Below are positions 1,824-23,146 of a stretch of 64,000 nt of DNA, piece after piece (position 1 is the first letter of the stretch; the number at the start of each line of letters is the position of its first letter). Source of the DNA: a virus; the IMG/VR virus record IMGVR_UViG_3300050014_000310, positions 1 through 64,000 of that record. One strand, 5' to 3'. The position numbers and the translations under genes are program-made. The notes below the pieces were generated by a model. It was given only the letters and a program-made list of their open reading frames with translations, had not been told where the DNA came from and searched no databases.

Positions 1824-2324
1824 CTAGCGAACGACATGGCCAAACTTTTCTAGCGCATCAGTCTGCTCTTGCCATAACGGTCCATCCTTGAACACTACCA
1901 GCGCGCTGGGGAACATGGCCGGGTCTTTCGCCCCCACGAATTTGATCCGTCCCCGGATGAAGCAGATCGCCTGAGCATGGGGAAAGATTACATTCTGCCA
2001 CGCTTTGGTATCTGGCCGGGCCGCGACCAGGCAGACAACGGTGCAACCTTTCAGGGCTTCCTCATAGGCTTTCTTGAGCCATTTCTCTGCCTGGTTGTAG
2101 GGCGGGTTGCACCAACAAACCGGAGCGTAATCTCCTTCTCTTTCTTCAAACTTTTCCTTCCAACCGGTTTCTAGGCTGCCGTTGTAGATAAAGTGTGGAC
2201 ACTTGGTATTAGTGTCATTGGCGCATACGTCGATATCAAAGTGAAACGCATTGTCAAGCGGGTTGAATAGTGTCCACGGTGTCTCCCAGTCCTGCTTATC
2301 ACTTGATAGAATTGATCTATTCAA
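1824..2324 (-). CDS. dam: Phage N6-adenine DNA methyltransferase (Dam-type, PF05869-like)
   Basis: 166 residues from a TTG at 2324 that overlaps the upstream stop (TTGA) and follows GGGGAGG; an ATG at 2369 is the alternative. The order of motifs is that of phage DNA N-6-adenine methyltransferases: DWETPWTLFNPLD near the N-terminus, FDIDVCAND, then the catalytic CNPPY (NPPY), and VVCLVAARPDTKAW. The family transfers a methyl group from SAM to adenine, probably protecting phage DNA from restriction. It is coupled to a second adenine methylase just upstream. Confidence 0.9.
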   Translation of the reverse strand: MNRSILSSDKQDWETPWTLFNPLDNAFHFDIDVCANDTNTKCPHFIYNGSLETGWKEKFEEREGDYAPVCWCNPPYNQAEKWLKKAYEEALKGCTVVCLVAARPDTKAWQNVIFPHAQAICFIRGRIKFVGAKDPAMFPSALVVFKDGPLWQEQTDALEKFGHVVR

Positions 2325-3130
2325 TCGAACAGCCTCCCCTGCCGCCTCACACATTCCGGGTTCATCCACAAAATTTCCGTCCGCTTCTTTCCTCGTTCCG
2401 CCGTGGCATCATGGGTCAACCGTGTCCAGTGTTTCAGCCTGTCATCGTAGAGCGGACAGGCGTAGCCGGAGAGGATGACCGGGCCCGGGTGAGCATCTAA
2501 GACATCGAGTAATTCAGCGTGATCGGCGTCGGTCAATTCGGCGCTGTACATTTCTCCGCTCCATCTGTCGCCTCGTATTTTCTGAACGTAGGGCGGATCG
2601 CAGTAGATAAGCACTTCAGGATTGCTGTACCGCTTAATAACTTTGACCCCTGGTTGATTTTCGATCTGGGCATGTAGCAAACGGTCAGCAACAACCGCGA
2701 TTCTCTTCGGCAATGCTCTCCAGTTCTGAGTACAATAGCGGCCTCTGGATGATATGGAGTGCGCCCAGCCTGTTTCATCGTTGAACTTTGCACCAAAGGA
2801 TTGCCAACACCTTACGAGAAATCTCCGGGCATCTTCTAGCTCATCGCCGGCGTGCGTAAAACTGGCATCGTATTCTTCGCGGCTCCAGGGAGTCATTTCA
2901 ACTGCGGCAGCTAGTTCATCTTTGCGAGTCCGGATCACTCGGAACAGGTTTGTAACATCACTATCCAAGTCGTTGATCGTCTCAAACTTCGAGGGTTGTT
3001 TGCAGAAGAACACCGCGCCGCTTCCGAAGAACGGCTCCAGGTAATGCACATGTTCGGGCATTTGGTCAATGATCCACTGAGCGAGAGTCCATTTGCTCCC
3101 CGGCCATCTAAGCACTGGCGCGATGTTCAT
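2321..3130 (-). CDS. DNA adenine methylase, D12 class
   Basis: 269 residues. It shows the D12-class order: PVLRWPGSKW for SAM binding at the N-terminus (the PxxRxxGSK motif), YLEPFFGSGAVFF, INDLDSDVTNLF, and the catalytic YCDPPY (DPPY) near residue 200. The chosen ATG at 3130 overlaps the previous stop as ATGA; an upstream in-frame ATG would add nine residues of the neighbour's tail. It modifies adenine in a sequence-specific way, likely for self-protection. Two adenine methylases side by side suggest two recognition sites. Confidence 0.92.
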   Translation of the reverse strand: MNIAPVLRWPGSKWTLAQWIIDQMPEHVHYLEPFFGSGAVFFCKQPSKFETINDLDSDVTNLFRVIRTRKDELAAAVEMTPWSREEYDASFTHAGDELEDARRFLVRCWQSFGAKFNDETGWAHSISSRGRYCTQNWRALPKRIAVVADRLLHAQIENQPGVKVIKRYSNPEVLIYCDPPYVQKIRGDRWSGEMYSAELTDADHAELLDVLDAHPGPVILSGYACPLYDDRLKHWTRLTHDATAERGKKRTEILWMNPECVRRQGRLFD

Positions 3131-3315
3131 GCCTCTGCCACCCCTTCGAATAAACATCTGTCGTCTGGGTAACGGCTACTGCTGGTCCACCCACCGCCAA
3201 TATCCCGTTGCCCTACTTTGCCGCAGTCGAGGGTCAACTTGATCGTGCTTCCTCTCAGCGGGCACAGGAAGCAGCATTCCGGCCTGCTATCGGCTATGAC
3301 CTTGTAGATTTTCAT
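3127..3315 (-). CDS. Small Cys-containing hypothetical protein
   Basis: 62 residues from ATG 3315, coupled on both sides by ATGA overlaps. It contains CCFLCP and a later DCGKVG, possible metal ligands. Its last residues (GVAEA) and the DNA encoding them repeat the end of the upstream gene almost exactly, because both 3' ends also serve as the ribosome binding site for the next gene. Function unknown. Confidence 0.65.
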   Translation of the reverse strand: MKIYKVIADSRPECCFLCPLRGSTIKLTLDCGKVGQRDIGGGWTSSSRYPDDRCLFEGVAEA

Positions 3316-3521
3316 GCCTCCGCCACCCCCTTTGTGCATACTGCACTGTCGCTCTCTGTCCCGTAGTACTCCCAAGTCCCTCGCTGCTCGATCTCGGACA
3401 CCCTCAGTCTGATCAGCCCCGGGTGCTTCTTTTCGATCTTCTCGACCGCCGTCTCCCTGCTGGCTGCGAATACGCGTCCCATGTGGCAAATGACTGTGCC
3501 TGCGATGTAGTCTTGGTTCAT
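3312..3521 (-). CDS. Small hypothetical protein
   Basis: 69 residues from ATG 3521, which overlaps the upstream stop as ATGA. A longer reading from 3542 is possible but lies inside the neighbour. It has the pattern AGTVICHMGRVFAASRETAVEKI, as in short phage proteins with a beta hairpin plus helix. It ends with the GVAEA tail shared with the next gene. Function unknown. Confidence 0.65.
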   Translation of the reverse strand: MNQDYIAGTVICHMGRVFAASRETAVEKIEKKHPGLIRLRVSEIEQRGTWEYYGTESDSAVCTKGVAEA

Positions 3522-4018
3522 ATTGCCACGCTCCATCTCCACTTTTTCTCCACGAACAAACTGGGTTGCCGATGCCTACCGTCAACGTCCCAACTACCGC
3601 CGCCGTGCAACCCCTCGTTGATCCACCCGACCGCCCGGAGTGATGCGCCTGATTCCTCCTTGAAGGTGTAGGTGATCAGCCGTTTGAACCCCATGGCCTT
3701 TGCTGCCCGCTGACAAGCTCCGTACAGCATACTGTTGGCGTTCCTGGTGCCGTCCGTGCAGGTTCGTCGGACTTCCGCTGTCAGACCGATCTCCATTGGA
3801 TTCTCTGACCAAGAAAAGAGCCACACCTGTGCTGTCAGGCCATTTTTCAGGTATTGAGAGAGCGGATTCCCGCCAATCGCCACGCCACAGAGTCTTCCAT
3901 CGTCAGCCACGCCAAGGCAGAAACGGTATCCATTGTTGATCGGTTTGTGGTGCCGATGATAGGCAACGATGAAGGCGTTGGCCTCTTTCAGCGTGACTGG
4001 AACGACGGCCAGACTCAT
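3518..4018 (-). CDS. XF1762-family phage protein
   Basis: 166 residues matching the pattern of the XF1762 family seen in many temperate phages: PVTLKEANAFIVAYHRHH near the N-terminus, a CGVAIGGNP strand, EVRRTCTDGTRNANSMLYGA, and a C-terminal LITYTFKEESGASLRAVGW. The fold is often likened to GNAT acyltransferases, but no substrate is known to me. It is coupled to both neighbours by ATGA overlaps. Confidence 0.85.
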   Translation of the reverse strand: MSLAVVPVTLKEANAFIVAYHRHHKPINNGYRFCLGVADDGRLCGVAIGGNPLSQYLKNGLTAQVWLFSWSENPMEIGLTAEVRRTCTDGTRNANSMLYGACQRAAKAMGFKRLITYTFKEESGASLRAVGWINEGLHGGGSWDVDGRHRQPSLFVEKKWRWSVAI

Positions 4019-4970: not shown

Positions 4971-5678
4971 TCAGATGGGCATATGCTTTGTTGCAAGTCG
5001 TTTATACTGGTCGGCTACTTTCGGCCAATATGCCATGTCTTTTTTGATGGCATGGGGTGATTGCTGGGGACACATGATACAGCCCAATCGCTTGAAAGCC
5101 CGTGGCGCTTCTCCCCCGCTGGACGAAGGCCACTCAGTACGAATGTCGTAAAGGTTGCAATATGGAATGCTGTGTTTGTGGATATATTCCCAAACATCTG
5201 CCTCTGTCCAATCAAAGATCGGGTGCAGAAACCGCTTGGAATTGTCGTTATAACAGGCCTCTACCTGCTGCCTTTTGCGGCGTTTGGTGCTCTCCCATTT
5301 CCTCACGCCTGTTACAACAAAGCGGCCAGCACCACCACGCTCTTTCAGGTAAGCGCAGCAATAACGCATGATATGGGTAGGTGGAATCATTTTCTTCTCA
5401 ATCAGCCGCCACATACTGATTGTTGGCCTCTCCCTAATCGTCTCCGGGTGATTATCCCGGATGAAATGCACCAGCTCCGGCGGGTCAACGGTGGTAATGT
5501 GGTAGTGGGCATCGAACTTGACGCCAGAGCGAATAAGCAGATCGCGGACGACGGTTGAATCCTTGCTCCCGGAATTGGCGAAGTAGTAACCTTCTGGCGG
5601 CTCAAAATGGCGCAGGGCTGCGATGGAATTAGCTATTTTATCGACGTCGCCGAATAGGGTATGCTCGATCAGGCTCAT
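4971..5678 (-). CDS. Phosphoadenosine-phosphosulfate-reductase-family protein, 3' end frameshifted
   Basis: 235 residues from ATG 5678 (ATGA overlap with the upstream stop). It has the PP-loop-like motif YYFANSGSKDSTVV (SGSKDS), DAHYHITTVDPPEL, a Cys pair MRYCCAYLK and GCIMCPQQSP. Relatives belong to the adenine-nucleotide alpha-hydrolase superfamily and probably adenylate a substrate; phage copies have no proven reaction. Around 4991 one A seems missing from an A run. Restoring it continues the frame for about 50 residues (EKKGKLADSCWQSGEDMFNW) to a TGA at 4822. The intact gene would thus be 4822..5678. Confidence 0.85.
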   Translation of the reverse strand: MSLIEHTLFGDVDKIANSIAALRHFEPPEGYYFANSGSKDSTVVRDLLIRSGVKFDAHYHITTVDPPELVHFIRDNHPETIRERPTISMWRLIEKKMIPPTHIMRYCCAYLKERGGAGRFVVTGVRKWESTKRRKRQQVEACYNDNSKRFLHPIFDWTEADVWEYIHKHSIPYCNLYDIRTEWPSSSGGEAPRAFKRLGCIMCPQQSPHAIKKDMAYWPKVADQYKRLATKHMPI

Positions 5679-5839
5679 CTCTCCAACTCCCTCACCCTGG
5701 CTTCTAGCCGCTTGCACTCGGCGATCCTCTGCCGTAGCAGGTTCAAATATCTGCCGGCGCGGGCTTCAGCCATGTAGCACTTTTGCTCCCAGGTGCTCTT
5801 GTGGGGGATGTTGTTTGTGGGATCGGGGCATCGGTTCAT
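5675..5839 (-). CDS. Small Arg/Glu-rich hypothetical protein
   Basis: 54 residues from ATG 5839, which shares its A with the upstream TAA (TAATG). The C-terminal 35 residues are a basic and acidic coiled coil. It follows the duplicated methyltransferase tail, so it may be the original downstream neighbour of the methyltransferase. Function unknown. Confidence 0.65.
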   Translation of the reverse strand: MNRCPDPTNNIPHKSTWEQKCYMAEARAGRYLNLLRQRIAECKRLEARVRELER

Positions 5840-5997
5840 TACTGCACCTCGATCCATTCCGGCGCCTCATTCTGTCCGCTCACCCACACTCCCGTGCATC
5901 CCAGCACCCACTCGCCTGCAGCAGCTACTAGCAGCGATGTCAGGATCTCCTCGCCCATCGCCTGGGCACTTTTAGTAGGAACCATGTTATTTCTCAT
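5839..5997 (-). CDS. Fragment duplicating the C-terminus of the cytosine methyltransferase
   Basis: 52 residues from ATG 5997 (ATGA overlap with the HNH stop). Residues from about 10 onward (SAQAMGEEILTSLLVA, EWVLGCTGVWV, PEWIEVQ) closely match the last 45 residues of the cytosine methyltransferase at 6545..9781. It is therefore a displaced methyltransferase tail separated from the intact enzyme by the HNH gene. The two copies differ at roughly a third of positions, so the event is not recent. It may be non-functional, or may persist as part of the HNH cassette. Confidence 0.7.
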   Translation of the reverse strand: MRNNMVPTKSAQAMGEEILTSLLVAAAGEWVLGCTGVWVSGQNEAPEWIEVQ

Positions 5998-6545
5998 TGA
6001 GCAACACTCTCCAATTCCGGCTGTTTCTTGAGCCGATCCAGCCGGGCGTGTTCTCTGCCGTGATGTTTTCTGCACAACCTGACTAGGTTCGATGGTTCAT
6101 TGTTGAAGGGGTCCTCATCTTTGTGATGCACGTCTACCCCGTTATGGTCACACTGAGCGCATGGCCCCGGTGGAAGCAGATGCCTTGCCCTCCACCTGGA
6201 TTCAGCAGCCGTTATGGACTCTTTCCAGTTGGAGTTCTCCGGGCCGAATTTTGCTATTGCTTTATGCGTCTCAGAACGTTTCTGCTTTGTCGCTTCGCTC
6301 TGTTTGATGCCCGTTAACGATTGAGCAATTTTAGCCCGGTTCTCCGGTGTCCTTGTTCGTCCGGAATTGATCTGTGACTTGATTTTGGCGAAGATTTCTG
6401 GTCGCTTTTTAACTTTTAACCGGGACGCTCGATGCTTGATGGCATTGTGGGTACGCTCAGGTAAGAAACCTTCATTCCAGCCAAGATTCGGGTAGACTTC
6501 ACGAATCCAAGTATCTTCTTGGGGTGTCCATGGTTTGCTTGACAT
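5994..6545 (-). CDS. HNH endonuclease with N-terminal SANT-like and NUMOD3-like DNA-binding segments
   Basis: 183 residues, starting at an ATG that shares one base with the methyltransferase stop (TGATG). Residues 1-45 resemble a Myb/SANT-like module (KPWTPQEDTWIREVYPNLGW). Residues 55-100 are NUMOD3-like (PENRAKIAQSLTGIKQSEAT). The C-terminus is HNH: CAQCDHNGVDVHHKDEDP then NLVRLCRKHHGREH. It lies exactly between the methyltransferase and a second copy of the methyltransferase tail, so it probably arrived by homing at that 3' end. Confidence 0.9.
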   Translation of the reverse strand: MSSKPWTPQEDTWIREVYPNLGWNEGFLPERTHNAIKHRASRLKVKKRPEIFAKIKSQINSGRTRTPENRAKIAQSLTGIKQSEATKQKRSETHKAIAKFGPENSNWKESITAAESRWRARHLLPPGPCAQCDHNGVDVHHKDEDPFNNEPSNLVRLCRKHHGREHARLDRLKKQPELESVAQ

Positions 6546-9500
6546 CACCGTACCTCGATCCATTCTGGACTATTTGGGTTTTTGATTACCCATACTCCAG
6601 TGCTACCGAGCGTCCATTCGTCCATACTAGCTACCAATAAAGCAGTCAAGATTTCTTCACCCATTGCTCTAGCTGAGGCAACAGGAACAGCATTGCCGAT
6701 GCGTTCTCTATGGCGGGAGTCCGATTTCCCGGCCAGCACCAGGGGCGATCCGTCCGGCATGGTTGGCTCCATCCCCTGCAAAACTGCCAATTCCAATGTT
6801 GTGAGGGGCCGGTGCCAGGTCCCGTCCAGGGCAATAATCAAGTAAGCTCCGGTCTCGTTGTCGGCCGGAACTCTCGGGTCGGCTATCGCATTGGTTCCGG
6901 AATGAATGTCAGCGGCGCCGCAGACGGTAACGCCTGATTTGTCCCAGTCCATGACACCGTAGATACCATTGCGCTTGCGGGGATCGGCAACTGATGGCGC
7001 CCCGTTCGTTGGCCCTGCGGCTCCGGTCACTACCTTGGCCGGAGTGTCCCATTGACCAACCTGCAAAATATTGGGCATTGCATTTGGGTTAAGGTTATAG
7101 CGAGGGTCGGCCACAGTAGCAACCCCATTGGAACTGCTGACCGTGACGCTGCCAGTCACGGTTTTTGCTGGCTTGCCCCAGTCGGCCACGCCCATGAGGT
7201 TCGGTCTCGAGTTACACCCGATGCGAGGATCGGCAATCGAAGGCGCTCCGGCCTGAACGTCGGCAATCCCTGTCACGCAGGCAGCCGGTTCGTCGAAGGC
7301 GCACAGTTGATACTTGTTGTGGAAGCGAGTCTTAACCTGTGGCAATCTCGGATCGGCCACGCCCGGGGCCCCGCTGCCGAACCTGGTCCCGGTCACGCAT
7401 GGCGCTGGATCATCGAACTTGATCACCTGGTAGACGGAAGGATACCGGCCGTCCCGGGGATTGAGCCGGGGATCGGATACAGAAAGTGATCCCGCTATCG
7501 GCCGGGTCGCTCCGGTCACCACATAGGACGGTTCATCCCAGGCCTGTACCTGATGGCAATTAGAGAATGTTTGTCCGCTCACCCGGGGATCGGACACTGC
7601 AGCCACTCCATTACTTCCACCTGTCCGGGCATGCCCAACAACTGCCTTACTCGGTTCATTCCAATCTGCAACCTGGAACACTCCAGCCCGTGGTTCATGC
7701 CCGAGCCTCGGATCTGCAACGCTGGTGGCGCCGTTGGATGGAGAATGTCCACTCGTAACCGTCCCGGCCGCTTCGTCCCAGGGCACGATCCGGTAGGAGT
7801 TTTTAAACGAGTCTCCGATCTTCTCGAGGTCCCGCCAATCACCCCCGGCCGGAATCAGCGCCAACCTGACCCACGTCTTCCACTGCAGATTTGGCAGTCG
7901 GTGCATGGGGCCAAGCGAAGGATCTCCCGGCAACGCCAACGGGCCGATGATCTCGCCAATAGACTTTACCCGGCGCTTCGGAGGCAGGTAGATGTGGTTC
8001 GGCATCTTCTCTTTGTTCCGGGCGATCAGCAGATACCGTGTCCTGTGCTGTCCCAGTCCGCCGATCTCGCCGCAGTCATAGGAGTTTTCGTCGAATTCGT
8101 AGCCATGGGCGCCCAGCATCTTTTTGATCTGGTCGAGTAGGGCTTTTCCTCGAGATGTGATCTTGGGCACGTTCTCGAATAGAAGCACAGCCGGCGGGTC
8201 ATCCTCGAAAGCCTCAACAACCAGACTGAGCCCCCGGTATGCCAGTTTGTTCAACGCCTGATACTTCGGGCTCTCCGCCGCTTTCTTGGGCAGCAACCCG
8301 CTGAAGCCCTTGCAGTTATGGGTAGCCATCATTGGTACACAGAAGGTATTATCTTCGTCAACTTCAAGATTCCAGACCTGTGCGATTGTTTGATATGACT
8401 TAATTTCTTTAACTCTTACCCAAATTGCTCCATCAATAAATTCATGAACAGGCCTCTTTTTTGGATCAAATCGAAAAGCTAGTTCCCATCGTTGCTTTGT
8501 CTGGACATCTCTGCCCATAATCGTTTGTTTTCCGCCTGGCCAACAGTTATTAATGCCTCCATATAATCCTAAACGAAGCATGAGGATCTGTAGACTCTTG
8601 AGAAGTTGCAGAGATACTGATGGTAGTTTCCACCGCGCCTGAAGCTCATTATTTGCTTGGCACCGGGGTTGTATGCTGCCATCTGTAGCCATATAGCCAT
8701 CGAATAATGCTTTAATGAGCGGTGTTTCTAGTTCCATGAGACTCCATGGGATATTTTTGTTTTCCGCTCCATCTCCGAAGGCACCCATTATCATGCTAAG
8801 ATGACGTGAATCGAGACGGATCTTGATATTATTTTCTCCGTTCGAAGCATCTTCGTTCCAATTCAAACCGAGATGTTGCAGGATTGAGCGAATCCTGACT
8901 GCTAAGTCACTTTTTGAATCTCCAATGCAGAAGTTAGTTCCATATCGATCATGGCGGCGATAACCATCCCCAAGATAAGCACCGATAAGAAACCAGAGAT
9001 CAATATCTTCAGCATAGGGATTGAGATCTATGATTTTTGATATTCTGGCTGTGTGGGAAGCATTTTTTTCGCCGTTTTTCTGGACAACCTGTGGATCTCC
9101 GAATGATTCAACAAACTTTCTTGCACAACCAGGAGATTCATTGATTACCGGAAATCCTATTCTGTCGCCTACTTTTATTTTATTTGCTGCCACAAATTCC
9201 GGTTTTCCCAGTGCTCTTTTTCTGTTGGTTGCTTTGCAACGAATAACCTTTCTTCGCCAGATTGGGTGATCAGCAGTAAGATCTCGAAAATCAACGTCTC
9301 CATTAAGACGGATCTCAACCATGTTACCTTGATACAGTTCAGTGCCCACCTTATTAACTTGCCGATACCGTCCCCTGTGGGTGAGTACCATATCGCCGTG
9401 TCGAATGGCATCAATACGCCGTGGGCCATCGATCGCCAGAACTTTTTCATATCCTGGTAGGCAGGGTGCCGAAAAGAAAACAGTGTCGGGAGTCTTGTAT

Positions 9501-9781
9501 CCGCAGATTCGCCGGATGTCTTCGGCCGTGACTTCCTGCCACCCGGCCGGAGGTTCGCTGCCGTGGAATGCTACGTAATCTTCCCTCGAGAATAGATCCA
9601 TCTGGACGGCCGGCGCGCCGGTTAACATCTCGAAGTCCTGGCAGGCCTCGGGATCGCAGTCGATACCCGCGATGGTCCGGAACTTGGCGACTACGCCCCG
9701 GAACTCTCCGGCCGCCTGCTGGAAACCTAGAGCGGCGCCGCCCAGGCCGCAGAACATATGTAAAATGGTGAACTCTTGCAT
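6545..9781 (-). CDS. dcm: C5 cytosine DNA methyltransferase with in-frame intein and eight-repeat recognition region
   Basis: 1078 codons. Motif I is at the N-terminus (MFCGLGGAALGF), and DCDPEACQDF follows as motif II. The intein occupies residues 107-489. After splicing, motif IV reads VFFSAP then CKGFSG, so the catalytic Cys is the residue just after the intein. FENVP is motif VI and GQHRTRYLLIAR motif VIII. Motifs IX/X follow near the end (LTTLELAVLQGM, RIGNAVP). Between VIII and IX, where the target-recognition domain belongs, lie eight repeats of about 40 residues ending in ADPR or SDPR. Mature enzyme: about 695 residues. Likely role: methylating phage DNA against restriction. Confidence 0.93.
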   Translation of the reverse strand: MQEFTILHMFCGLGGAALGFQQAAGEFRGVVAKFRTIAGIDCDPEACQDFEMLTGAPAVQMDLFSREDYVAFHGSEPPAGWQEVTAEDIRRICGYKTPDTVFFSAPCLPGYEKVLAIDGPRRIDAIRHGDMVLTHRGRYRQVNKVGTELYQGNMVEIRLNGDVDFRDLTADHPIWRRKVIRCKATNRKRALGKPEFVAANKIKVGDRIGFPVINESPGCARKFVESFGDPQVVQKNGEKNASHTARISKIIDLNPYAEDIDLWFLIGAYLGDGYRRHDRYGTNFCIGDSKSDLAVRIRSILQHLGLNWNEDASNGENNIKIRLDSRHLSMIMGAFGDGAENKNIPWSLMELETPLIKALFDGYMATDGSIQPRCQANNELQARWKLPSVSLQLLKSLQILMLRLGLYGGINNCWPGGKQTIMGRDVQTKQRWELAFRFDPKKRPVHEFIDGAIWVRVKEIKSYQTIAQVWNLEVDEDNTFCVPMMATHNCKGFSGLLPKKAAESPKYQALNKLAYRGLSLVVEAFEDDPPAVLLFENVPKITSRGKALLDQIKKMLGAHGYEFDENSYDCGEIGGLGQHRTRYLLIARNKEKMPNHIYLPPKRRVKSIGEIIGPLALPGDPSLGPMHRLPNLQWKTWVRLALIPAGGDWRDLEKIGDSFKNSYRIVPWDEAAGTVTSGHSPSNGATSVADPRLGHEPRAGVFQVADWNEPSKAVVGHARTGGSNGVAAVSDPRVSGQTFSNCHQVQAWDEPSYVVTGATRPIAGSLSVSDPRLNPRDGRYPSVYQVIKFDDPAPCVTGTRFGSGAPGVADPRLPQVKTRFHNKYQLCAFDEPAACVTGIADVQAGAPSIADPRIGCNSRPNLMGVADWGKPAKTVTGSVTVSSSNGVATVADPRYNLNPNAMPNILQVGQWDTPAKVVTGAAGPTNGAPSVADPRKRNGIYGVMDWDKSGVTVCGAADIHSGTNAIADPRVPADNETGAYLIIALDGTWHRPLTTLELAVLQGMEPTMPDGSPLVLAGKSDSRHRERIGNAVPVASARAMGEEILTALLVASMDEWTLGSTGVWVIKNPNSPEWIEVR
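6872..7792 (-). repeat. Eight tandem ~40-residue coding repeats in the methyltransferase recognition region
   Basis: Residues about 664-970 carry eight units with the pattern aromatic-D/N-x-P/S, VxG or VTG, a Gly/Ser-rich stretch, then S/AxADPR or SDPR. The DPR triplets are spaced 41, 39, 40, 41, 41, 41 and 35 residues apart. The units are diverged, so they are protein repeats rather than recent DNA duplications. Their position between motifs VIII and IX is that of the target-recognition domain. Confidence 0.9.
8315..9463 (-). mobile_element. Intein with LAGLIDADG endonuclease inside the cytosine methyltransferase
   Basis: 383 residues. It begins with Cys (CLPGYEKVLAI) and ends in THN, followed by Cys as the +1 residue, all canonical splice-junction residues. 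Block B is LTADHPIW and block F is VWNLEVDEDNTF. Two dodecapeptide motifs (IGAYLGDG and DGYMATDG) mark a DOD-type homing endonuclease. The insertion point is directly before the catalytic cysteine of motif IV, so the enzyme is inactive until splicing. Confidence 0.93.
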
Positions 9782-12723: not shown

Positions 12724-14118
12724 CTAAATGGGCATCAGACAAGCGCTATAGCCATCCGCGGGCATCACGTCGCGGGCATCCCGCATTAATTGTTCCAGAA
12801 ACACCTTGAACTCTTCCTCGACTGCAGCCGGTCGCCTCTCCACGATCGGGATGTCCGTTCGTGGGTCATATCCAAGGTTGCTCCATCCAACGTAGGGCAT
12901 CAGGATCTTGGCTTCCGTGGTCAGCATTTCATTGTCAATTTCATTGATGCAATCAGCCTCGATCGGGTAAGCGCCCGGGATGTCCAGAGCACAAAGGATC
13001 GTGCGGTGAATCCGATCTTCCATATCTTGATAGCCTTTGAGATAGGGCTTGATCGGGCGTGTGACGTCAGAAACGTAGGCTTCTCCAGCATCATGAAGAA
13101 GGGCCAGCAGTTGAATCCGAGGATTAAAGTGGTTGATCCTGGCCAGAATTGCACAAAGGATAGAGTGCTGACCTACGGAGTTGTGCGCCCCATATCCCTC
13201 GCAGATATAGGTGTGCGTTGATGTTTCTATCCCCATAAGATCTTGTACTCCATCGTCGTATGCCCCCACAATTTCTATGGGTTCACCCAAACCAGCAAGC
13301 TCTTTTCCTCCGTATGCCAACCCTTCTTGAAAGTTGTCCAACAACCTTATTGGGCGAACGGTACCCAAGAGCCGTAGAATTTCACGCCAACCACCCTGTA
13401 TCTGCAAGTTAACAACCCCTGCCCCTTCAAGATGATGCCCCGCAAAAGATTGCCCGTACTGAAAACCAAAATGGTCTAGCATCGTTCGCATTCTATCGAG
13501 AATATGTCCTTGTTTTTGGGAGACTCCGCACTGGAACCCCTGTCTATTTTTGAATGAAATAGAACCCTCTCCATCGCAAATCCCTGCTAACCAACCAGAG
13601 TTATAGCTGCTATCTGTGTCCCACGGCACCAAGAATCTGTGTATATATCTTTTTCTACCAAGGGATATGTCTTGCGCTATTTGGCTGGCAGTAACCCACT
13701 TTTGGTTGCGGCTTACCTTTGTTGCAACAAGCCAAGGGTGCTCAGGCGAAGACTTTATTGTTGAACCATCAGACATTTCTAACCTTATCGTCCTACCCAT
13801 AAACGGTGCAGCTTCAACAATAAACGCTGGTCTTAGCTTGCGTTTTTTGCGTTTCATATCGCCAATAGCGTATTCATCGAAACCTAATATTCTATCCCCA
13901 GCAACAAGCTCGCCAGCGCGCACCCATCTTAAATCTGCCGTCAAGATGCGTTCATCAACTGTGGGGCAGTAGAAATGCTTGCAATGGCCGTTGTAGCGGC
14001 AGGTCAATGATAGAGCGTGAGCAATGTCGTCGATTGAAACCTCTTCGGGCTTCGGGTCTAATGGCCAAAAATGCTTGCCAGTATATGTTTCGCACCAATC
14101 GTCAAGTCTTGTGCTCAT
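12724..14118 (-). CDS. YfbR-like HD-domain nucleotidohydrolase with in-frame intein
   Basis: 464 codons; residues 51-313 are an intein. The spliced protein of about 201 residues reads NGHCKHFY joined to SVGQHSILCA, then LALLHDAGEAYVSDVTRPIK and EIDNEMLTTEAKILM. This is the order of metal ligands in YfbR-type 5'-deoxyribonucleotidases and related HD hydrolases. The family dephosphorylates deoxynucleoside monophosphates, so a phage copy could adjust nucleotide pools beside the phage thymidylate synthase and kinase. The intein sits one residue before the segment carrying the first HD histidines. Confidence 0.88.
   Translation of the reverse strand: MSTRLDDWCETYTGKHFWPLDPKPEEVSIDDIAHALSLTCRYNGHCKHFYCPTVDERILTADLRWVRAGELVAGDRILGFDEYAIGDMKRKKRKLRPAFIVEAAPFMGRTIRLEMSDGSTIKSSPEHPWLVATKVSRNQKWVTASQIAQDISLGRKRYIHRFLVPWDTDSSYNSGWLAGICDGEGSISFKNRQGFQCGVSQKQGHILDRMRTMLDHFGFQYGQSFAGHHLEGAGVVNLQIQGGWREILRLLGTVRPIRLLDNFQEGLAYGGKELAGLGEPIEIVGAYDDGVQDLMGIETSTHTYICEGYGAHNSVGQHSILCAILARINHFNPRIQLLALLHDAGEAYVSDVTRPIKPYLKGYQDMEDRIHRTILCALDIPGAYPIEADCINEIDNEMLTTEAKILMPYVGWSNLGYDPRTDIPIVERRPAAVEEEFKVFLEQLMRDARDVMPADGYSACLMPI
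13180..13968 (-). mobile_element. Intein with LAGLIDADG motif inside the HD hydrolase
   Basis: 263 residues, starting with Cys (CPTVDERILTADLRW) and ending in AHN with Ser as +1 residue. Block B is SSPEHPWLV and block F is VQDLMGIETSTHTYICEGYG. A LAGLIDADG-type motif (LAGICDGEGSISF) shows a homing endonuclease, shorter than in the other two inteins. Splicing is needed to restore the HD active site. Confidence 0.9.
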
Positions 14119-19565: not shown

Positions 19566-22469
19566 CTACATTGCCCTCCTAACTTGATTTCCGAACATCC
19601 CCAACTTCGCGTATACGCTTCTCCTGGCCCAGAATTGCGCCGCCAGCACCGGAACTTCGTCGATAAAGTCGAACACCATGCAATCCCGTTTTCCCCAGCA
19701 AACCCCTTGAATCCGTCCAACCTCTTGCTCTATTTTTGCCTTGCTGTTGCACCCCGCTACCAGGAACAGCCTGTCAAACCTTGAGATATCAAGGCCTTCG
19801 CGGGCCAGGTTAACGGCGAACAGGATGTCAAGGTGTCCGTCCTTCATCGCCTTCAAAATCTCTTCCCTCTTGCGATCGGGTAATTCGCCATATGTTACAG
19901 CGCATTTCAATCCTGCGTCGCTAGCATAGAGCATGTTCGCCAGCGTCTGAATATGGTCTATCTTTTCTGATAGGACTAGCGAATAATGCCCGGGGCACTC
20001 CTGGATCAAGGTTTGGACGATCAGGTGATTCCTTTCCTGATCGCATAAAATATCATTCAGGATTGCCGTATAGTTCATTTGTGGCGGCCTGGGCTCTTTG
20101 ACCAGGTTCAACCGGGCTTCTTCGCACTTTTTTTCCCATTCTTTTATACGTTCCTCATGCTTGACGAAACTCTCCGAAACCGTTGATACGTGGATAGTAC
20201 GAAGGCTCGGAATCATTATTTTGCCGGATGCCTGAACCGCGGATCGGTCTATCTTGGCTAATGTTGGGCCAATGAACCGGTCAATCATGTCCGTGAGTCC
20301 ATCAGCCCGCTCTTTTGTGGCCGTGTTATGGACTAAAAAACCGTTAGCAATGAAAGTTTCAACAGATTGATCAACTGAAACATCGTAAACATATTTCTCT
20401 GAGACTTCTTCTATAGATCGTATCTTTATTGGATGCCCTTCTATGGAGTTGCTCATAAATATAGAGTGATGTCCAAAATATCCGCTTGTATTTCCATTGT
20501 AAGACGCTTGAGACCAAGTAACATCGTAACGCCAATGTCGTCCAACAATCTGACGATTTCCCTCTACAATACCTCCTTGACGGGGTTCGTTCCGATAAAG
20601 ACTACCAATTACTCCGCAATGGCTTAAACAATGTAGAAGATCATTGGCTAACCCTTCAGATGTTGTTGTGTAGCAATAGCGATTACGATTTCTTGTGGCT
20701 TTGCAAAGGCTGCCATCTGTTACGAGTAAGCCATCGATCATTTCCCTGATTGCTTCAATCGGCCATGACCAAACTATAGATGGAATGCGCTTTTCATAGG
20801 ATTTTGGTCGTCCACCCATAATTGTTTGAATTAAATTAAGCAGCGGCATACAGAGGAGAATAATTTCTTTTGAATTTTTCCCTCTTGTAGGCTCTATGAT
20901 CCTTATCTTCATATGAATTAAGTCTGAAAAGCTTTCGAGAAAAGTTATCATTTCATCAACTTGATGATTTGCGACAAAAATGCGAATTTGATCTTTGGAA
21001 ATTGCACCATCTCCAATAAGGATTCCGATTAGGCGTGCAATCCTGGTTACCGGCAACAATGCTTTTATCCAATGGCCATTTGCGCCTTCAGTGTAGATGC
21101 GCGATTCTTTATCTAATGGAAAACTATTACGATGAAATTTGAAAAAATCTAAGGGTAAATAAGGTCCATATACTCCAGTTTTATATTCGTATCTTTTGCC
21201 TCGGTTTTTTGCTCCGCTACCATTTATTATTTGTGGAATGATAGTTTTCCATGCTCCGGTTATATATAAATTGTTTTCATCCAATAGAGATGTAACGTCT
21301 AAGGTTTCTTGTATTTTTGTACAAGAGAACGCCTGATCTTCCAGTAATAAATAATCTCCGATTTTTAGTTCTTTGCCAATTGCCAAAGACAATTTTGGTT
21401 CATACTTAATGCCACGCACCTCCGTATTTATTTTCGTTGATCGTTCAACCTTAAAGATTGAATGATCTTCAGTTATGGTTAATTCACGTCCATGGGTTGT
21501 CTTTACCTTAAATGTTTGTTTTGTATTAAGATATTTATGAATATGCTCAAGATTCAACCATTCATACGCTCTGACATTTGTGTTATAGCCCCATATTTTA
21601 TAGTTTGGAGTGGCAACAATTGCGTTTGGTTCTACATTGAATCTATTAGCCAGTTCACTGATTTTGAGATGTTCGATTGTTCCTTTATACTCGACGATAA
21701 TCCATGAATCTCCTCCTACGCTTAGGCCGTAGCGCCACCGCGCAGGTAGCCGGTCAATCACATTACTAAACGTAGCCGCGGGCACATGATGGCATTCATC
21801 GAGTGCAACTAAACCGAATAACCCGGCGATCTCGTCAAATTCTTCCGTGCCCATAGCGGCTAACGTCTGCACCATGCCGATAGTGATCCTGCTTCCTATG
21901 CGTCGTTTCTTCCCGGCGATCAGGCCGATCTCGCCTCCTGGGATGCCAAGCCTCTCTTCAATCCGATCCATGGTCTGCCCGGCCAGGTCTTTAGTGTGTG
22001 TGACCCATAGCGCTGGTTGACCTACCCTGGCGATGATTTCCAGGCCGCATTCTGTCTTGCCACTACGGGCCGGCGCTTCCAAAACTCCCTGGGTGCCCCT
22101 CAGCATGGCCGTGATGGCCGGCTCCTGATAGATACGTAGTTCGATCTGGCTTTCGAATGTCACCATCGGCAGTTCCCTGCGCAAATCCTCAAACGTGTAT
22201 TCGATCCCGTATCGTTTCGCCCACCCCAGCACTCGTGAGGCGTAGCCCCTGGGTAGCGAGATACCACCTTTTTCTGCCCGGACTAGTGGGATCACCGGTG
22301 AAATTCTGCCGGTCCACCGTCCCCTTTTTTCCGCTTCGGCGAAGGCAGGGTTGGAGAGCGTATTCTCCTCTCTGATTTTGGACAGGAAAGCATCGAGATC
22401 AGGCGTGAGAACGTCCGTGGGGATCTGTATGAATATTCTATTGGATACATAAATATTAATCTGTGGCAT
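19566..22469 (-). CDS. XPB/UvsW-type SF2 DNA helicase with in-frame intein
   Basis: 967 codons from ATG 22469; residues 250-715 are an intein. The spliced helicase (about 501 residues) has Walker A EAPARSGKTE, motif Ia THTKDLAGQT, the DECH box ALDECHH and motif III TATKERADG. The C-terminal half has LAREGLDISRFDRLFLVAG and QEVGRIQG as motifs V and VI. This layout is that of ATP-dependent superfamily 2 helicases acting in phage recombination-dependent replication. Thymidylate synthase is the upstream neighbour. The intein splits the RYGL and TATKE sequence, so splicing restores motif III. Confidence 0.92.
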   Translation of the reverse strand: MPQINIYVSNRIFIQIPTDVLTPDLDAFLSKIREENTLSNPAFAEAEKRGRWTGRISPVIPLVRAEKGGISLPRGYASRVLGWAKRYGIEYTFEDLRRELPMVTFESQIELRIYQEPAITAMLRGTQGVLEAPARSGKTECGLEIIARVGQPALWVTHTKDLAGQTMDRIEERLGIPGGEIGLIAGKKRRIGSRITIGMVQTLAAMGTEEFDEIAGLFGLVALDECHHVPAATFSNVIDRLPARWRYGLSVGGDSWIIVEYKGTIEHLKISELANRFNVEPNAIVATPNYKIWGYNTNVRAYEWLNLEHIHKYLNTKQTFKVKTTHGRELTITEDHSIFKVERSTKINTEVRGIKYEPKLSLAIGKELKIGDYLLLEDQAFSCTKIQETLDVTSLLDENNLYITGAWKTIIPQIINGSGAKNRGKRYEYKTGVYGPYLPLDFFKFHRNSFPLDKESRIYTEGANGHWIKALLPVTRIARLIGILIGDGAISKDQIRIFVANHQVDEMITFLESFSDLIHMKIRIIEPTRGKNSKEIILLCMPLLNLIQTIMGGRPKSYEKRIPSIVWSWPIEAIREMIDGLLVTDGSLCKATRNRNRYCYTTTSEGLANDLLHCLSHCGVIGSLYRNEPRQGGIVEGNRQIVGRHWRYDVTWSQASYNGNTSGYFGHHSIFMSNSIEGHPIKIRSIEEVSEKYVYDVSVDQSVETFIANGFLVHNTATKERADGLTDMIDRFIGPTLAKIDRSAVQASGKIMIPSLRTIHVSTVSESFVKHEERIKEWEKKCEEARLNLVKEPRPPQMNYTAILNDILCDQERNHLIVQTLIQECPGHYSLVLSEKIDHIQTLANMLYASDAGLKCAVTYGELPDRKREEILKAMKDGHLDILFAVNLAREGLDISRFDRLFLVAGCNSKAKIEQEVGRIQGVCWGKRDCMVFDFIDEVPVLAAQFWARRSVYAKLGMFGNQVRRAM
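20325..21722 (-). mobile_element. Intein with two LAGLIDADG motifs inside the helicase
   Basis: 466 residues. It starts with Ser (SVGGDSWIIVEYKG) instead of the commoner Cys, ends in VHN, and the +1 residue is Thr. Block B is LTITEDHSIF and block F YVYDVSVDQSVETF. Two endonuclease motifs (IGILIGDGAIS and DGLLVTDGS) mark a DOD-type homing endonuclease. A start at the following Gly would break the block A pattern, so Ser1 is preferred. Confidence 0.9.
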
Positions 22470-22471
22470 CG

Positions 22472-23146
22472 TTACCCCGCCTTTCTGACTAGCTGCCCTA
22501 CCTGTTCCCAAACATAGTCATAGACGTGGAGCCCCTTGCTGGATACGATCATTCCGCCGTCCTGTACCCCAATCTCTTCGGCCATATATTCTTTTAGCAG
22601 TTGCAACCCCCCAAGGTTTTCCGGCAAGCCAGCCCAGAGATCCCATGACCGGAAGTAGACTATGAAGTGCAGTTGACCGTCTTTGATACGGCAGTCGATG
22701 TGGCGCAGGCACGGCGGGTCACTGATCATAATGTCACCGGGTTGCCCGATCTCGATAATGGCCTGATTGGTGTTCGGGCCTTCTTTTAGCATCTTGATCA
22801 CCAGATCAAGACTTTGATTGATCCGGCAACCATAGGTATACGTCTCGTTGGGTGCCACAGTCGTGCCCATGATGTAGTTGGCGAAGTATTGTTCAATGCG
22901 CTCCATGTCGGTCGTCGGAGCGATGTTCAAATACTCCGGGATGATTGGCACAAATGGCCTGTTGCCTGGGTTGGTCACATAGGCCTGGAAGTAGTCGAAC
23001 TCCCTGCGCTGGTGCATCCCGGCAAAGCTGCCCTGCTGTACCATGTACTCCCGGCTGTTTCCTGAATGTTGGTGCCAGAGTTCATATAGCGCCCGGAACC
23101 ACAATTCCGGGAGGTCAAATACTTGAAGCACTGTTGGTTTAAGCAT
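22472..23146 (-). CDS. Thymidylate-synthase-family protein
   Basis: 224 residues. The C-terminal two thirds match the thymidylate synthase / dCMP hydroxymethylase fold: ISDPPCLRHIDCRI with the catalytic Cys, YFRSWDLWAGLPENLGGL for substrate contacts, and SSKGLHVYDYVW near the end. It is shorter than bacterial ThyA and closer to archaeal or phage-type enzymes. It may make dTMP or a hydroxymethylated pyrimidine. The adjacent kinase acting on dTMP supports dTMP. Confidence 0.85.
   Translation of the reverse strand: MLKPTVLQVFDLPELWFRALYELWHQHSGNSREYMVQQGSFAGMHQRREFDYFQAYVTNPGNRPFVPIIPEYLNIAPTTDMERIEQYFANYIMGTTVAPNETYTYGCRINQSLDLVIKMLKEGPNTNQAIIEIGQPGDIMISDPPCLRHIDCRIKDGQLHFIVYFRSWDLWAGLPENLGGLQLLKEYMAEEIGVQDGGMIVSSKGLHVYDYVWEQVGQLVRKAG

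Follow-up and report, generated by a model that had tools for sequence, protein, structure and literature searches.

How does a DNA methyltransferase that carries eight short units where ordinary enzymes have a single recognition module select the DNA that it modifies? The question is raised by a gene in a 64,000-nucleotide stretch of DNA (hereafter the window; positions 1 to 64,000 of IMG/VR record IMGVR_UViG_3300050014_000310) that forms part of a virus record of 128,693 bp, and whose other open reading frames (ORFs) include phage helicases and baseplate or head proteins. The gene (6545..9781, minus strand, as are all the units described below) encodes a C5-cytosine DNA methyltransferase with eight units of ca. 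40 amino acids (aa) between motifs VIII and IX. We consider it probable that its product is a solitary, phage-borne, multispecific anti-restriction C5-methyltransferase with eight recognition modules. This reading builds on features that we observe in the window or in its relatives, namely the core of a methyltransferase, the array of eight units, the match of these units to the TL module with which ordinary enzymes recognise DNA, type-specific residues at DNA-contact columns, the avoidance of duplicate units within a protein and the exchange of units as cassettes.

The ORF codes for a precursor of 1078 aa and matches PF00145 with an E value of 1.1e-15, and its motifs I, IV, VI, VIII, IX and X align, in order, with those of seven phage homologues (43–48% identity). 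The fold was deduced from AlphaFold2 models of the homologues L017, with eight units, and L064, with three; their cores were modelled with a predicted local distance difference test score (pLDDT) above 90, and the 50 best Foldseek matches of the L064 model, headed by C5-methyltransferases, included such enzymes and their relatives, among them M.HaeIII (1dct; E 9e-11). A phmmer comparison of the whole precursor with the PDB retrieved no match. The identity as a cytosine methyltransferase, already proposed in a preliminary description of the locus, is thus borne out by PF00145 and the conserved motifs, and the enzyme is predicted to methylate cytosine at C5.

Motif IV is whole only once a predicted LAGLIDADG-type intein of 383 aa is removed (8315..9463, minus strand; PF14528; precursor residues 107-489, with junctions read from the sequence), an element that the preliminary description did not mention. 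The intein (C...HN) sits exactly before the catalytic Cys, splitting motif IV as SAP^C...HN^CKGFSG, so that this residue (codon 8312..8314, minus strand; precursor residue 490) is the first of the C-extein; the P-C-K to which it belongs is invariant in two alignments. Splicing is predicted to restore SAPCKGFSG before activity and to yield a mature methyltransferase of 695 aa. We found the intein in no other family member examined, as the distance between motifs IV and VI is 47–51 aa in all of the 171 proteins compared (see below) but one regex outlier. The catalytic motifs are kept in nearly all of these proteins, with PC in 167/171 and ENV in 170/171.

The array itself runs from 7801 to 6872, which agrees within three residues with the coordinates first proposed (6872-7792), and consists of eight units of ca. 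40 aa ending in [AS]DPR, with DPR ends at precursor residues 690, 731, 770, 810, 851, 892, 933 and 968. The pattern initially read from it, W-D-x-P ... V-T-G ... S-V-A-D-P-R, was also correct, and can be extended to the framework [GN]x[YLF][GR]V-x2-W-[DE]-x-[PTA]-[AS]-x-[TA]-[VI]-[TI]-G...G...[SA]-V-A-D-P-R. ADPR units occur in the 171 family proteins far beyond chance, with ends spaced mostly 37–47 aa apart (mode 39–41). A profile of the unit detects all eight in the window, with 31–54 bits each. Unit 1 (NSYRIVPWDEAAGTVTSGHSPSNGATSVADPR; 7706..7801; 54.0 bits; type 52) has its nearest relative in unit 4 of the five in L031, and is followed by unit 2 (7583..7684; 31.6 bits; type 39) and by unit 3 (7466..7555; 37.7 bits), of a rare type. 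Unit 4 (7346..7435; 35.8 bits) is of the TRFGSG type (type 22), present in 35 backbones, and is 81% identical to unit 2 of the three in L064, while unit 5 (7223..7318; 36.3 bits) is of the ADVQAG type (type 32, in 26 backbones) and unit 6 (7100..7195; 35.7 bits) falls into type 38 at the loose clustering cut. Unit 7 (6977..7072; 45.5 bits), of the PTNGA type (type 30, in 35 backbones), is closest to unit 3 of the eight in L017, and unit 8 (6872..6967; 40.1 bits), of the ADIHSG type (type 38), stands directly before motif IX. Eight repeats are therefore present, as had been claimed, but they are not near-identical copies: pairs have only 19–56% of their residues in common, versus 63–81% identity to the nearest units in other phages, some of which occupy different array positions.

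Ordinary C5-methyltransferases contain a single TL motif, (YFW)X(RK)X5P(STCA)PT(ILV)(TASV)X5-16H(PFYWL), situated 10-50 aa before motif IX (PMC2413257). We could evaluate the position of the best unit-profile match in 53 ordinary phage C5-methyltransferases; in 46 of them, against 9.1 expected, it lay in the 65-aa stretch that precedes motif IX. The matches are in register, with VYGRMEWDKPSPTITTQCF aligned to unit columns 2-20, and the enzyme of Moraxella phage Mcat28 matches the profile at iE 0.006; unlike the window protein, W-D-x-P enzymes of the Mcat28 type contain one unit-like module directly before motif IX and no tandem array. The correspondence is apparent when an ordinary GGTWRDWPEEL...YGRM.WDKPAPT.TT...HPEQ.RAISLREA is set against GGDWRDL...YRIVPWDEAAGTVTSG...ADPR (x8)...HRPLTTLELA from the window. 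The element preceding the module is GG-T-W-R-D-W in the former and GG-D-W-R-D-L in the latter, and the A/S-D-P-R unit end occupies the place of H-P. Because both the upstream element and the register match, unit 1 lies at the site of the single TL module, with seven more copies before motif IX. As judged from these alignments, the units are very probably copies of the TL target-recognition module. The array does stand in the place of a recognition domain, as first described, but the idea that this domain had been replaced by another way of reading DNA is not supported, since the units match TL modules.

The contact scheme NNN-x10-TL-x3-CCC predicts DNA contacts at unit columns 1-3 and 19-21 (PMC2413257). 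When each column was excluded from the clustering against which it was scored, the most informative on unit type were columns 2, 18-23 and 26, whereas the hinge columns 7-12 were variable but carried little type information. The type signal thus stands where ordinary enzymes touch DNA, because the informative columns coincide with the published contact positions. From the unit types and these columns, it seems likely that each unit has a separate site. In the mechanism that we propose, motifs I-VIII and IX-X would form a single catalytic core bearing eight alternative specificity cassettes, of which only one would dock on the core and the DNA at a time while the others hang clear; the docked unit would read a short cytosine-containing site via the residues flanking its T-V pair, and the flipped cytosine would then be methylated. 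Gain, loss or swap of whole units by recombination would alter the set of sites protected from host restriction enzymes, and we infer from this an anti-restriction role.

The spliced window protein matches 34 phage records at ca. 37–40% identity, among them Pseudomonas Hollowayvirus and Citexvirus, Sinorhizobium PBC5, Marinobacter PS3 and Achromobacter CF418P1. The proteins of phiCTX (orf41)/H66 and LKA5 (Hollowayvirus), Dobby (Citexvirus), PBC5 (orf51, whose annotation names phiCTX orf41), PS3 and CF418P1 belong to the same family, as they share both backbone and ADPR units; they are 43–48% identical to the spliced window protein but differ from it in having 4–8 units and no intein, and their annotations go no further than methylase, unknown or hypothetical. 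With the extein as a single query, a search of viral contigs gave no match, but an alignment-based search succeeded and confirmed at least 565 to 596 relatives in viral contigs and at least 289 in genome contigs, from Firmicutes and Proteobacteria. From each contig search we kept the best 80, which biases the sample toward proteins similar to the query. The 171 family proteins compared come from phages and prophages; once near-duplicates were removed, there were 126 backbones with 778 units. The number of repeats in homologues, whose comparison the preliminary description had suggested, varies from 2 to 10 over these 126 backbones; six is the commonest, 25/126 contain eight or more, and even closely related phages differ (4–6 units).

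Clustering at a loose cut separated the units into ca. 55 types, 29 of them with at least five members, and most types occur once per protein. Pairs of the same type were absent among middle units at a strict cut (0 versus 22 ± 5 in shuffled arrays) and infrequent at the loose cut (16 versus 62). Two types are nearly confined to the last array position, which accounts for 47/49 and 75/78 of their members, the former being the type of unit 8. The middle units of the window show 63–81% identity to relatives carried by backbones that are only 51–66% identical. The gene of P. aeruginosa phage BR228a is a mosaic at the DNA level: units 1-2 are 99% identical to those of H66, units 3-4 are 98% identical to units 4-5 of Dobby, and unit 5 is 96% identical to unit 6 of LKA5, while the backbones of these P. 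aeruginosa phages are 91% identical. Whole units are thus swapped between related phages at the DNA level. In Pseudomonas phage PA8 (L013, 3153-3950), the annotated product is a fragment of 265 aa comprising four units and the C-terminus, with the catalytic part outside the annotated ORF, and the methyltransferase gene looks truncated.

The preliminary description had envisaged the array as a solenoid, reading a longer site in a modular way, or as a multivalent DNA clamp. Such a reader, with units laid on consecutive stretches of a long site in the manner of TALE proteins, or a nonspecific clamp for processivity, would fit the regular spacing of ca. 40 aa and the strict framework. However, AlphaFold2 predicted no solenoid, since the arrays of L017 and L064 have a pLDDT of mostly 28–53 and almost no secondary structure, although low confidence is no proof that a solenoid is absent. 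Small modules strung together flexibly, of which only one might dock at a time, would agree with these models. Moreover, closely related phages differ in unit number, each unit matches a module that functions singly in ordinary enzymes, and equivalent units in a clamp would not shun partners of their own type, so that the lack of same-type pairs at the strict cut is a poor fit to either a clamp of equivalent units or a long composite site. We thus regard both forms of this explanation as quite improbable. The outcomes named beforehand as contrary to the preliminary description did not occur: we found neither a single compact target-recognition domain (TRD) nor repeats shared by every ordinary Dcm enzyme. 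Similarly improbable, in our estimation, is that the array is a joint specificity code, in which the combination or order of cassettes, and no single cassette, sets the motif, and the reshuffling of ca. 50 standard parts builds new or longer sites.

A different possibility is that the whole array merely loosens recognition, so that the enzyme methylates, for example, many CC-containing sites and no unit has a site of its own. We deem this unlikely, because a single relaxed reader needs no distinct, conserved cassettes, whereas the unit types are conserved, have type-specific columns at the N-TL and C-TL contact positions and recur within a protein less often than expected. Most units might also be decayed, with only one or two active (e.g. 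the conserved last type) and the rest persisting as non-functional remnants, as could be expected from the small cost of an inactive unit and from a last position that is nearly always taken by one of two types. Yet the middle units retain both the framework and their type-specific residues over distant backbones, and spread by exchange between phages, making extensive decay very improbable.

Several observations weigh against a multispecific enzyme with eight TL-derived modules. The distinct units of each protein could have been inherited from a single ancestral array that was already diverse, with no selection for different targets, and AlphaFold2 gives the array no confident structure and, hence, no view of unit docking. 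Although the formal probability of the positional excess before motif IX is 2e-28, the 53 ordinary enzymes are mutually related and this value is too small, so it is position and register that carry the argument. Regarding the module itself, the upstream R/K of the TL consensus is usually V/I in ADPR units, the unit profile scored negatively on the recognition domains of SPbeta-type enzymes, and hhalign found no match between the 32-column unit, too short and too divergent, and an alignment of those enzymes; the match to ordinary modules consequently rests on TRDs of the W-D-x-P type. Also, Phi2LM21_p23, 44% identical to enzymes of relaxed specificity, was inactive in E. coli (PMC5537653). We located no report of measured specificity for the ADPR-unit family, and our literature searches, beyond whose reach most subscription papers lay, did not turn up an account of the ADPR array. 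The principle is known, then, but this modular and unusually long array is apparently undescribed.

The multispecific enzymes of Bacillus phages are built with modules of ca. 40 aa, about 2–5 per enzyme, and that of SPR has three targets. The SPR, SPbeta, phi3T and H2 enzymes are solitary, as that of the window probably is, and resemble it in being phage enzymes with one core and, between motifs VIII and IX, several recognition domains in tandem; indeed, the window array holds eight tandem TL modules at that position, and whole-unit mosaics and types at differing positions indicate that its modules are exchangeable, as in the SPR/SPbeta type. The window family differs in its backbone and module sequences, without significant profile match, in its uniform [GN]xY[GR]V..W[DE]..TVTG..ADPR framework with up to 10 units, and in its occurrence in phages of Proteobacteria and other Firmicutes. 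As no profile similarity supports common descent of both arrays, we conclude that the window enzyme probably works like the SPbeta type but is not a member of it. Tandem recognition domains confer several targets on C5-methyltransferases of Bacillus phages (PMC8936443), and the contrast initially drawn with multispecific phage enzymes does not stand, because those are reportedly constructed likewise (PMC8936443).

Tandem TL modules also appear in the C5-methyltransferases of Rhizobium phage RR1-A (L352, 41579-43672), with nine modules 32–42 aa apart, and of Aeromonas phage phiARM81mr (ARM81mr_p29; L353, 16513-18210), with five modules 33–35 aa apart. Unlike those of the window, their units end without ADPR, and the backbones of the window and PBC5 proteins show no significant similarity to them (best BLASTP E 0.094). 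The ARM81 enzymes have been described as of relaxed specificity (PMC5537653), and JCM7686_0772 and JCM7686_2655 from Paracoccus aminophilus are reported to protect DNA at several unrelated sites (PMC3925955). By analogy, the RR1-A/ARM81mr_p29 lineage would belong with this relaxed-specificity group, whose Paracoccus members were compared by description only, and the relaxed specificity of RR1-A/ARM81mr-type enzymes may be the sum of several defined specificities.

Other genes near the methyltransferase gene could also participate in DNA modification. A Dam-type adenine methyltransferase (2321..3157, minus strand; PF02086, E 1.1e-24) has relatives flanking related methyltransferase genes in 14/160 loci. 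An XF1762/Mom-like protein (3518..4018, minus strand; NF045478, E 5e-49; sub-threshold match to Mom, PF25680, at E 5e-5) is encoded beside the two DNA methyltransferase genes, and an extra DNA modification is possible. With a PAPS-reductase-like protein (4971..5717, minus strand; PF01507, E 1.7e-18), these neighbours are consistent with a gene cluster that modifies DNA to counter restriction. Of the nearby genes that we scanned, which encode the HNH, PAPS-reductase-like, XF1762/Mom-like and Dam proteins, none matched a type II endonuclease family, although profiles often miss endonucleases. PAPS-reductase-like genes lie after or close to multi-module methyltransferases in several phages unrelated to one another: L008 (4815-6047), L011 (4683-5915), L352 (43669-44880) and the window. 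Dobby, D14A, RR1-A and the window suggested this gene as a conserved partner, but we rejected this idea, as matches of the window version appear near only 4/160 loci, none just downstream.

The surroundings of the gene also contain signs of homing elements. An HNH endonuclease gene (5994-6563) overlaps the methyltransferase stop codon and, beyond it, the 3' end of the methyltransferase gene recurs in degraded form at 5846-5961 (minus strand; EEILTSLLVAAAGEWVLGCTGVWVSGQNEAPEWIEVQ). This arrangement suggests that a homing endonuclease once inserted here and replaced the 3' end of the gene, leaving a scar. Further LAGLIDADG domains are found at 13459-13602 (minus strand), within an HD-domain protein ORF (12724-14118), and at 20571-20753 (minus strand), within a DNA helicase ORF (19566-22511), so that inteins or in-frame homing endonucleases may number three or more in this phage.

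If our reading is right, the ADPR-unit methyltransferases constitute a large, uncharacterised family in which a single enzyme has as many as ten predicted target specificities, compared to the handful in Bacillus phages, and would explain the relaxed-specificity phage enzymes producing 5-methylcytosine as sums of defined specificities. About 50 recurring cassettes of 40 aa, naturally swapped on one backbone, are a data set for the long-standing question of how the target is specified by the residues on either side of the TL pair. Likewise, if right, the family would show broad evasion of restriction through cassette exchange.
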